Assembly (NCBI RefSeq): GCF_900091515.1
Contig: NZ_LT607410.1
Span: 2,976,001 to 3,040,000, forward strand
Reading direction: 5' to 3'
DNA: 64,000 bases
Origin: Micromonospora purpureochromogenes
Lineage (GTDB): Bacteria; Actinomycetota; Actinomycetes; Mycobacteriales; Micromonosporaceae
Shown: one piece after another, positions 29,101-31,950 of the stretch
How the letters are laid out: each line of letters starts with the position of its first letter
Numbering within the stretch: position 1 is the stretch's first letter
Translations under genes and position numbers: made by a program
The notes under the pieces: generated by a model
What the model saw: the letters and a program-made list of their open reading frames with translations, nothing else
Databases searched by the model: none
What the model was told of the DNA's origin: nothing

Positions 29101-29342
29101 TCAGGCGGTGAGTCCCAGCGTGAGCGCGGCGATGCTCGGCGCCAGGTACAGCAGCGGATACGGAACGTGCGAGAAGGCCCTTGCCCGCAGGACGGTGACG
29201 ACGGCGCCGGCGAAGTACAGCACCAGGCCGGTGGCCGCGATGACGCCGATGATCGGCATAGCCAGACCGGCCAGCAGGCCTGCGGCCCCGAGGGCCTCGG
29301 CTGTGGCGAGCCATGGCCACCACGAGCGGGGGACGCCGTAGT
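29101..29342 (-). pseudogene. DoxX-family membrane protein, 5'-truncated
   Basis: The minus strand encodes the last ~80 residues of a DoxX-like protein: YGVPRSWWPWLATAEALGAAG, then two further membrane helices, ending LYLAPSIAALTLGLTA and TGA. Normal DoxX proteins have about 115-120 residues, with a first helix and a conserved loop before VGVPxSWWPWL; those ~40 residues are missing. The homology stops at about 29342, exactly where the plus-strand LysR homology begins. The open frame continues beyond but only through unrelated codons. Confidence 0.75.
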
Positions 29343-30176
29343 CCGCTCCTCGTCCTGGTGGAGGAGCTGCACTTCGGTCGGACGGCGGCCCGGCTGCGGG
29401 TGTCCACCGCTCGGGTGAGCCAGACGATCCGCAAGCTGGAGCGGCAGGTCGGCGCCGCTGTTTCACCGCACCAGCCGGCGGGTGGAGCTTTCCGGGTTGG
29501 GCCGCCGGTTGTACGAGGAGATCCAGCCGCCCTGGGCGCAGATCACCGCCGCTGTCGAGGCGGCGGTCGCGGCAGGCCGAGGTGGCACCGGGACGCTACG
29601 GGTGGCCTTCGTCGGCGCTGCGGGAGGTCAGCTGCTGCTCAGCGCCGCCGAGGTGCTCCGCCATCAGCTGCCCGACTGCACCGTGCAGGTCCGAGAGGCA
29701 CAGATCGCGGACGTGTTGCCTTGGTTGCGCGACCGTACCGTGGACGTCGCATTCGCGTCACTGCCCGTCTTCGACAAAGACCTGACGACCGGCCCCGTCC
29801 TCCTCGAGGAGGCCCGGATTCTCGCGGTACCCGCACAGCACCCGTTCGCCCGTCGCGCGTCGGTCTCCATCGAGGACCTGGGGGACACGACCGTCCTGCG
29901 CTTCGCCGACGTCCCGGACGCCTACTCCGACGAACGCTCTCCCGGACGGACGCCGATGGGTCGCCCTGTCGCGCGCGGCGCATCCGCTCGGACGCTGAAC
30001 GAGCTGCTGGCGATGGTCGGGGCCGGGCTTGGCGTCTTCCCCGTCGGCGAGCAGGCGCAGCGCTACTACACCCGCCCCGACGTTGCCTACGTCCCCATCC
30101 ACGACGCTCCACTGCTGCGATGGGCACTCATCTGGCCCGCTCACTGCGCAGACTCTTCCTGTCGGCGGTCTCGTCG

Positions 30177-30373
30177 GGCACCGTGTCTGGTGCCGGCGAT
30201 TTCGGGTCGTCGGCGCACCTGGTCCCCACCGGGCCACCGCCTCGTCCGCTCGACCCTGAGAGGTCCGGCATGAGTTCCGCGGGGCCCGGTGGTCCCAGGA
30301 CACGTATGACTGGCGACAGGGCTGAGCGCCGTCGAGCGCCGATCAGTGAGCGACTGGCTTCCGTGTCCTGAGA
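30177..30373 (+). ncRNA. Candidate IS110 bridge RNA
   Basis: In order, the left end can fold into: a 5' hairpin (GGCACC/GGTGCC, 30177-30194); a target loop closed by a 14-bp stem with one bulged A (30226-30240 with 30279-30292) and capped by GACC/GGTC (30252-30265); and a donor loop closed by 30293-30304 with 30362-30373 and capped by GCGC/GCGC (30326-30339). Guide-like segments: GGCATGAG (30267-30274) is the exact reverse complement of the right target CTCATGCC. CTCGTCCGCT (30241-30250) matches the left target CTGGCCCGCT at 8 of 10, plus one wobble. ACAGGGCT (30316-30323) equals the element right end 31648-31655. CAGTGAG (30344-30350) is the reverse complement of the left end CTCACTG. Transcript ends are not known. 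Confidence 0.75.
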
Positions 30374-30416
30374 CCACTGGGTGCCCACCTGCTGCTGCAA
30401 CAGCAAGGAGGACACC

Positions 30417-31646
30417 ATGAGTGTCGAACACGACCCCTCGATGCGTCGACCAACCGCGGGCATCGACTGGGCCAGCACTGAACACGCCCTCGCGATCGTT
30501 GGCCTCGACGGTGTCGAGGTTCAACGGATGATCGTCGAACACACCGCTACGGGGCTGCGGAAGCTGCTGCGCTGCCTGCAGCAGACCGGGGTACTCGAGG
30601 TCGGTATCGAACGTCCCGACGGGCCCGTCGTCGAGGCCCTCCTCGAGGCAGGACTCACGGTCTTCGTGATCGCCCCGAACCAGATCAAGCACCTGCGCCG
30701 CCGCTACGGGGCAGCCGGCAACAAGGACGACCGCTTCGACGCCTACGTCCTGGCCGACACCGTCCGCACCGATCACCACCGCCTGCGTCCCCTCACCCCC
30801 GACTCTCCCGCGACACTCACGTTGCGGATGACCGTCCGCGCCCGCAAGGACCTCATCGCCGCCCGGGTCGCGATGGCCAATCAACTCCGAGCCCACCTCG
30901 AACACGTTCTCCCCGGCGTGATCGGGCTGTTCCGCGACATCGACTCCGCCATCACCCTGAGCTTCCTCACTCGGTTCCCGACTCAGGACAAGGTCGACTG
31001 GCTGTCGCCACGCAGACTGCAGAACTGGCTGCACGCCGTCTCCTACCCCAACCCGGCACGAGCCGGGCTGCTGCACGCCCATCTGCTCGCGGCTACCCGC
31101 GGAACCACCGGTCCTGAAGCCACCGCCCGGGCGCACGTCACCGCCGCGTTGGTGGCTGGGCTTACTACCCTGCGCGAGCAGATCAACGCGCTGGAGGAAC
31201 AGATCGAGGTCCAGTTGCTCCAGCATCCCGACGCGGAGGTGTTCACGTCCCTGCCCCGGGCGGGAATCGTGCGAGCGGCCCGCCTTCTGGCTGAGATCGG
31301 TGACGCCCGCGGCCGCTTCCCGACACCGGAGGCACTCACCTGCCTGGCCGGCGCCGCACCCTCGACCAGGCAGTCCGGGAAAGTGAAAGTCGTCGGCTTC
31401 CGCTGGGCCGTCGACAAACAACTCCGTGCAGCGGTCATCGACTTCGCCGGCGACTCCCACCACGCCAACCCCTGGGCCGCCGACCTCTACCAACGAGCCC
31501 GAGCGCGGGGCCACGACCACCCCCACGCGACACGAATCCTCGCCCGCGCCTGGCTGCACGTGATCTGGCGCTGCTGGCAAGACTGCGTCCCCTACGACCC
31601 CATCCGCCACCGAGCTCTGCAGGCCGTCCTGGCGACCACCGCTTGA
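30417..31646 (+). CDS. IS110-family transposase (DEDD recombinase)
   Basis: A 409-residue recombinase that works with a bridge RNA to join element and target at a CT core. The RuvC-like DEDD residues are Asp17 (GIDWAS), Glu65 (GIERPDG), Asp105 and Asp108 (KDDRFDAYVLAD). The C-terminal Tnp domain has SLPRAGIVRAARLLAEIGD and APSTRQSGK, with the nucleophilic serine expected in RQSGK. ATG 30417 follows AAGGAGG at 30404-30410. Length and all motifs are normal, so it looks active. It lies in the same direction as the lysR gene it interrupts. Confidence 0.93.
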   Translation: MSVEHDPSMRRPTAGIDWASTEHALAIVGLDGVEVQRMIVEHTATGLRKLLRCLQQTGVLEVGIERPDGPVVEALLEAGLTVFVIAPNQIKHLRRRYGAAGNKDDRFDAYVLADTVRTDHHRLRPLTPDSPATLTLRMTVRARKDLIAARVAMANQLRAHLEHVLPGVIGLFRDIDSAITLSFLTRFPTQDKVDWLSPRRLQNWLHAVSYPNPARAGLLHAHLLAATRGTTGPEATARAHVTAALVAGLTTLREQINALEEQIEVQLLQHPDAEVFTSLPRAGIVRAARLLAEIGDARGRFPTPEALTCLAGAAPSTRQSGKVKVVGFRWAVDKQLRAAVIDFAGDSHHANPWAADLYQRARARGHDHPHATRILARAWLHVIWRCWQDCVPYDPIRHRALQAVLATTA

Positions 31647-31950
31647 CACAGGGCTACTCATGCCGCCAGCGCGCTGATCCACGCCTTCAGCCTCGCGGCG
31701 GAGAGCGCCGCGAAGCGAGCCCGATGACGGCTCTCGAAGTTCTCGTGACGTCTTCAGCGGCGCGCCGGGCACCCGGCGTCGGCTCACCCGCGCCCCAGAG
31801 CCCGCCGGACGTCGGCGTACCGGACGGTTCCCCTGCGATCAGGGCTGCGAGGAAGCCCACCTCATCCATGGGACTGACCGTGCCGAAGAAACGACGCCGC
31901 CCGCTACCTCCTGCGACCGACACGCCGCCCGCCCCCTCCGCTCCCGGCCG

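Follow-up and report, generated by a model that had tools for sequence, protein, structure and literature searches.

IS110-family insertion sequences that are guided by a noncoding RNA, called bridge RNA or seekRNA, were described in 2024. In IS621, as set out in the reports on it (PMC11208160; PMC11208158), the transposase joins a DEDD RuvC domain to a Tnp domain with a catalytic serine, and the left-end RNA consists of a 5′ stem–loop, a target loop and then a donor loop, each of the two loops being composed of a left guide, a hairpin and a right guide. Its core is CT, a promoter spans its joined ends, and its RNA carries handshake guides. In ISEc21, another member of the family, an upstream noncoding RNA matches both target strands, and ISMch6, a relative of ISEc21, was naturally redirected (PMC11187229).

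The window analyzed here is a stretch of 64,000 nucleotides from Micromonospora purpureochromogenes, whose genome (G000) is a single contig of 6.67 Mb. An earlier note, made from the sequence alone, had proposed that this window carries a bridge RNA in an IS110 element, with the guides in the same order as in published bridge RNAs. This proposal held: the transposase matches the IS110 model NF033542, the two-loop RNA covaries, the guides track the sites, a second copy exists, intact sites are found, and the order of the guides is that of IS621. All the IS621 features listed above recur here, the promoter and handshake guides as putative ones, as does the RNA match to both target strands seen in ISEc21. 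Hence, with a probability of about 0.96, the element is an intact IS110-group insertion sequence, probably recently active, with a left-end bridge RNA that guides by both loops. The bridge RNA system is well supported, its kind is already known, and its differences from IS621 are modest. In this clean natural example, the target guides and the donor guides are both legible in the sequence and can be compared with a large number of separate insertions.

The element, its transposase and its boundaries

The element and the host DNA around it comprise the following features:

30133..30141, + strand: host DNA, left target TGGCCCG and left core CT (30140-30141), the junction being fixed by intact sites
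30140..30146, + strand: right donor site (core CT and CACTG), pairing with the right donor guide
30142..31656, + strand: IS110-group element body, 1515 bp, flanked by CT cores
30417..31646, + strand: IS110 transposase (PF01548 and PF02371), 409 aa, from domain matches, alignment and profile searches
31645..31656, + strand: right end, or left donor, GACACAGGGCTA, from close copies and relatives
31657..31663, + strand: host DNA, right core CT (31657-31658) and right target CATGC, from intact sites and relatives

The transposase matched the NCBIfam model NF033542 (“IS110 family RNA-guided transposase”) with 173.5 bits at a cut-off of 140, and the domains PF01548 and PF02371 with 116.1 and 60 bits, while its score for TIGR-Tas (NCBIfam NF052498) was 28.4 bits, below the 100-bit cut-off. 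It has the DEDD RuvC-like domain and the Transposase_20 domain with a conserved serine that define the IS110 group. The residues D17, E65, D105, D108 and S320, which we take to be catalytic from the match to IS621 (8wt6), were invariant in all eight aligned relatives. A profile of aligned relatives retrieved IS621 and ISCro4 from the PDB; the latter (PDB 9t56, E 3e-13) is a relative in sequence. The noncoding ends extend 275 bp upstream of the start codon and 10 bp downstream of the stop codon. The long left end that holds the RNA and the short right end are typical of the IS110 group, in contrast to the IS1111 group, where the RNA lies in a long, right noncoding end.

Transposase relatives (E ≤ 0.001) were found in 76 of the 151 genomes searched; below, G numbers other than G000 denote these genomes, and L numbers denote loci. 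The window copy (G000:C1:3006142) has one further copy in its own genome, which differs from it at one of 1514 bases and is inserted at TAAATCCG-CT-CATGCCG. Close relatives (93–94% identity) are present in G086, with four copies, and in G046, with one copy, and a relative at 92% in Micromonospora sicca (L083). Locus L006 (G077) is identical to L097, from Micromonospora sp. HNM0581, over all 4185 bp of the locus. Among the titles of IS110 papers covered, a partial set of the literature, none mentions this element, and we do not claim that the element is undescribed. The possibility that it is an immobile relic, with an RNA that merely looks functional, is very improbable given the intact 409-aa reading frame, the single difference between the two copies, and the intact TTGACA motif and all four guides.

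The left and right limits of the element were determined from intact sites. At the site occupied in G046, with the sequence CGCCCG-CT-CATG or variants of it, the junction was gap-free in 12 of 13 relatives that span it, and the remaining one (L060) had a 2-base insertion at the junction. For one G086 copy (L035), both relatives with an intact site (98.5% and 93.3% identical, aligned to no more than about 20 bp beyond the core) have the sequence GTGCACG-CT-CATGCCG. The comparison with an empty lysR site, proposed as a check in the earlier note, gave the same picture, as the homologue L184, which is 75% identical to the window lysR flanks and possibly a paralogue, aligned over 371 bp, gap-free, with the two flanks fused at one CT. 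Because the intact sites show the target as ...G-CT-CATGC..., A31656 is part of the element, the right core CT is 31657-31658, and the element comprises 30142-31656 with the CT cores outside it, so that the right end at 31655 given in the earlier note was 1 bp off. These sites also show insertion at the core dinucleotide with no further target duplication. The bases that precede CTC are GGGCTA throughout the close copies, and those before the core are GGGCTT, GGGCTC, GGGCCA or GGGCAA in distant relatives; this variability before CTCA indicates that these bases belong with the element. A right core at CT 31654-31655 was rejected, as CT is missing there in relatives whose CTCA is preceded by GGGCAA, and the intact sites have no extra bases.

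In the interrupted lysR-type gene (29313-30141), the helix–turn–helix match is in frame with 29313 and the substrate-domain match with 29482. As these two matches lie in different frames, the gene may already have been disrupted when the element inserted.

The left-end RNA and its donor guides

The RNA features needed in this section are listed below. The left and right target guides are abbreviated LTG and RTG, the left and right donor guides LDG and RDG, and the matching sites LT, RT and RD.

30189..30219, + strand: predicted 5′ stem–loop of the bridge RNA, from the single-sequence fold
30226..30292, + strand: target-binding loop, stem 30226-30240/30279-30292 with bulged A30236, inner hairpin 30252-30255/30262-30265
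30294..30372, + strand: donor-binding loop, stem 30294-30304/30362-30372, inner hairpin 30326-30329/30336-30339
30316..30323, + strand: LDG ACAGGGCU, equal to 31648-31655
30344..30350, + strand: RDG CAGUGAG, 7 contiguous nt, from the relatives compared

A search with nhmmer and nine seed RNAs detected the RNA in 77 of 85 fetched loci (the loci without a match were L121, L132, L149, L156, L158, L159, L165 and L167), and 55 of these 77 RNAs together with that of the window made up the structure alignment of 56 RNAs. The 36 named base pairs were formed in 94.0% of the cells, compared to 83.9% in shuffled alignments and 34–40% in slid controls, a comparison in which the latter favor the structure because it was drawn from the window. 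Both sides had changed in 26 of the 36 pairs, compared to 15.2 after shuffling, and no shuffle out of 500 was as high as the real alignment on any measure. Hence, both loops are supported by covariation, which was the check on the fold that the earlier note had named. Changes on both sides were found in 11 of 14 pairs of the outer stem and three of four pairs of the inner hairpin of the target loop (98.9% and 97.8% of cells paired), and in eight of 10 and two of four pairs of the corresponding donor-loop helices (86.2% and 100%); a lower inner donor helix, 30310-30313/30354-30357, was weaker (86.6% of cells).

RNAalifold, used unaided, predicted the outer stem and the inner hairpin of each loop. 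The single-sequence fold (z = –3.0) contained the 5′ hairpin and the target stem, as the earlier note had drawn them, but not its donor stem, which rests on comparison, that is, on RNAalifold and covariation. An Rfam scan of 30000-31800 at the gathering threshold gave no match. In Kineococcus xinjiangensis (L084, 1974-2475) the bridge-RNA left end occurs twice, head to tail, 251 bp apart, with one transposase after it.

The RDG, which the earlier note had recognized as the reverse complement of the left end, matched RD in 442 of 448 cells across 64 distinct rows, compared to 410.6 when permuted, and so covaries with it. Left ends that read CTCATTG are accompanied by the guide CAATGAG, and GTCACTA by TAGTGAC. 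Further covariation was found at loci missed by the left-end pattern, with CTTACTG (L123, L144) and CTGACTG (L128, L129); among the six loci missed in this way, the RDG matched fully in L123, L128, L129, L131 and L144, and with one mismatch in L154. On the other side, right ends with ACAGGG or ATAGGG have the same letters in the guide, the second LDG position matching in 60 of 66 distinct rows versus 42.0 expected.

Counted toward the core, the first 7 nt of the LDG (–9 to –3) matched the right end in 60–65 of the 66 rows, the eighth (–2) in 39, and –1, which is donor position 7, in 15 (15.9 expected). The guide base after that equals the first core base in nine of 66 rows. The few matches at –1 and in the core indicate that the LDG does not read the core-adjacent base or the core, and the guide leaves A31656 and the core unpaired. 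The letters that the earlier note gave for this guide, ACAGGGCT at 30316-30323 and again at 31648-31655, are present, as is CAGTGAG at 30344-30350, while the core coverage that it implied did not hold.

A short RNA could in principle guide by the target loop alone, with the donor loop unread and the ends recognized by protein, and for ISEc21 a 58-nt RNA is described that is sufficient for transposition (PMC11187229). There, the functional RNA is 58–74 nt long, which is different from the two-loop RNA with covarying donor guides deduced here. The donor-loop guides that change together with the ends, on both sides of the element as listed above, make guiding by the target loop alone highly unlikely for this element, and we favor the reading in which both loops guide.

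Target guides and the sites occupied

Two guides lie in the target loop:

30242..30250, + strand: LTG TCGTCCGCT
30268..30274, + strand: RTG GCATGAG, 7 nt including the core

Everything that the earlier note cited for this loop by letter and position is present, including the stem, the bulged A30236, CTCGTCCGCT (30241-30250) and GGCATGAG (30267-30274). Guides and sites were compared using 94 aligned RNAs, of which 77 came from the fetched loci and 17 were others. Both the 9-base right site and the full RTG were available in 76 RNAs, and both the left site and the full LTG in 83; the rows dropped had no recognizable end, were cut by a contig or were misaligned, while misaligned guides (e.g., L124, L125, L145) were scored unchanged. 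Sites from draft genomes lose flanks, as in Blastococcus capsensis L088, L092, L093, L126, where scaffolds begin or end at or inside the element.

The 7-nt RTG matched its site at all seven positions in 61 of the 76 copies and at six in the other 15. Over 55 distinct guide sets scored across nine positions, 414 of 495 cells matched, compared to a permuted mean of 303.1 and a maximum of 332 in 20000 permutations. From the core outward, Watson–Crick matches were found in 55, 55, 54, 52, 55, 53, 51, 10 and 29 sets, while 47, 55, 48, 39, 23, 26, 27, 9 and 27 were expected with permuted guides. Sliding the site by 1–2 bases lowered the matches from 84% to 11–26%. The right boundary was mostly located by a pattern ending [CG]TCA, so that positions 1–4 were set or almost set in advance while 5–7 stayed free, and at the latter positions 159 of 165 cells matched versus about 76 with permuted guides. 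At 17 loci the right end was placed manually by the right-end motif, with knowledge of the guides, and this test used 16 of them; when hand-set ends were left out (42 sets), positions 5–7 still matched in 121 of 126 cells, versus 65.8 expected and a maximum of 82 in 5000 permutations.

On a quick tree of 90 transposase rows, the site followed the guide at positions 5, 6 and 7 in 7.8 of 8, 12.5 of 14 and 10.2 of 12 pairs, with no pair in the opposite direction, and at position 4 in 6.5 of 7 pairs; the pairs were independent and on supported branches, and the values are means over random pairings. The match at positions 1–7 and its fall to chance at 8–9 define the RTG as 7 nt including the core. 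A guide of 8–9 nt was rejected (10 and 29 of 55 matches versus 9.1 and 26.6 expected), and position 8 followed on the tree in none of 12 pairs. Hence, the right guide of the earlier note did match the target, but at 8 nt was one nucleotide too long.

Full 7-nt matches extend beyond the usual TGAG/TGAC guides, with CTCGTCC (L118), CTGAAAT (L133), CTCTCAG (L136), CTCCTAT (L139), CTCGCTC (L146) and GTCGTCA (L157), all at hand-set right ends. Among other hand-set loci, the RTG of L103 matched with one G–U, and those of L085 and L086 had one mismatch each. In a related group (L011, L153, L157, L160-L162, L164, L166) the core is GT instead of CT, and the RDG, RTG and left end are changed to match.

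The LTG is the weaker half of the target match. Over 61 distinct guide sets 350 of 549 cells matched, compared to 276.7 when permuted (maximum 309), and sliding LT by 1–2 bases lowered the matches from 64% to 16–35%. The signal is graded: from the outside to the core, 16, 25, 29, 33, 37, 46, 55, 57 and 52 of 61 sets matched, versus 14, 15, 20, 22, 19, 37, 49, 48 and 52 with permuted guides, the outermost position being near chance. No single LTG position reached a median p of 0.05 on the tree. Among the 83 copies, 52 matched at 4 to 6 of nine positions and seven at fewer than four, some of these from misaligned guides. The match of CTCGTCCGCT to the left target, which the earlier note had weighted equally with the right one, is thus above permutation but weaker.

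The LTG TCGTCCGCT matches the window site TGGCCCGCT at seven of nine positions plus a wobble, and the site of the second copy, AAATCCGCT, at six of nine plus a wobble, while the RTG matches CT-CATGC at both, so that with wobble allowed both sites fit RYCCG-CT-CATGC. The 10-mer CCGCTCATGC has 13 other occurrences in the genome, all unoccupied. Guides and sites have also changed together in nature. In G000 and G046 the guide has CGUCCG and the sites end in CCG, while in the G086 copies, which are 93–94% identical, the guide has UGCACG or CGCACG and all four sites end in GCACG-CT. The G086 LTG is TTGCACGCT, or TCGCACGCT in L004, whose site equals its own LTG at nine of nine positions; the site of the fourth copy has G for A at position 4, a G–U pair. 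The sequence GCACGCTCATGC has no unoccupied sites in G086 and three in G046. Of the four G086 copies (L004, L033, L034, L035), three fill every GCACG-CT-CATGC site of that genome and the fourth lies at the wobble site; target saturation is possible.

Across the distinct guide sets, 55 for the right and 61 for the left, the guides track their sites. As the earlier note had claimed, they predict the site, by permutation and tree tests more often than chance; the other copies that it had proposed to check, the second own copy and those in three related genomes, agree with the guides. The view that the recombinase protein picks the site and that the RNA match is coincidence or shared ancestry could draw on the weak left-target match of some elements, such as L104, L105 and L107 (one element, one guide), which share only G-CT on the left, but it has almost no probability left, since the targets are host DNA, not inherited with the element, yet they track the RTG over many independent changes, and the G086 copies switched left guide and sites together.

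Joined ends and a proposed route of insertion

Three further features may act when the ends are joined or exchanged:

30275..30276, + strand: target loop, putative handshake guide UU, its first base complementary to donor A31656
30351..30351, + strand: donor loop, putative handshake C, complementary to the G that precedes the target core
31643..31648, + strand: TTGACA, –35-like half of a putative circle promoter, with a NANNNT hexamer 17 bp on, in the left end

The handshake model expects a target-loop base complementary to donor position 7 (PMC11208158). The base after the RTG was complementary in 60 of 62 cases (T:A 45, A:T 15), versus 37.1 expected; on the tree there were only 4–5 changes and three usable pairs, two in the same direction and one without difference (sign test p 0.5). 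With so few independent changes, the data are consistent with a target-loop handshake but do not prove it. The second base gave a weak signal (26 of 62 versus 18.5). The donor-loop C was complementary in 77 of 82 cases, versus 75.1 expected from composition, and is too invariant for covariation. Of 59 distinct end pairs, 55 had TTGACA in the right end, with NANNNT at 18 bp in 49 and at 17 bp in six. As the hexamer is loose and left ends are conserved, the promoter reading is suggestive only; the promoter-like halves agree with the published circle promoter (PMC11208160).

By analogy with the published IS621 mechanism, excision would join the ends into a circle with the junction ACAGGGCTA-CT-CACTG under the corrected boundary (ACAGGGCT-CACTG with an end at 31655), and TTGACA of the right end together with the –10-like hexamer of the left end would drive transcription of the bridge RNA, which the transposase would bind. 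The first loop, with the left guide UCGUCCGCU and the right guide GCAUGAG, would read a host site of the type RYCCG-CT-CATGC on its two strands, and the second, with ACAGGGCU and CAGUGAG, the joined ends of the element itself. A serine-mediated exchange of top strands at the CT core, possibly aided by the handshake base U30275 with A31656, would be followed by insertion that leaves only the core at both ends.

The guides differ from those of IS621 in several dimensions. The RTG has 7 nt here and carries most of the discrimination, versus 4 nt in IS621 and more in some of its relatives; the RDG is a contiguous 7 nt here and discontiguous in IS621; and the LDG covers –9 to –2, with position 7 and the core unread, versus positions 1–8 in IS621 (PMC11208158). 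The nucleotides GCU 30321-30323, at the end of the LDG, are almost invariant and could pair with AGC 30349-30351 in 54–55 of 56 RNAs. Tentatively, and with more doubt than confidence, we suggest that these elements form a mostly actinobacterial clade with its own geometry, in which the RTG provides the main specificity, the LTG is loose, and the LDG is shifted outward with position 7 and the core unread, while the GCU may hold the donor loop closed via AGC until the donor binds. Such pairing could explain why the final U of the LDG ignores the donor base. The clade yields a per-position measure of guide-base strictness and many independent natural retargetings, and such data would help in the choice of bridge recombinases whose right guide is longer and discriminates better. 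Two of the loci (L123, L155) come from a metagenome-assembled genome labeled Chloroflexi, which could reflect either horizontal spread or a binning error.
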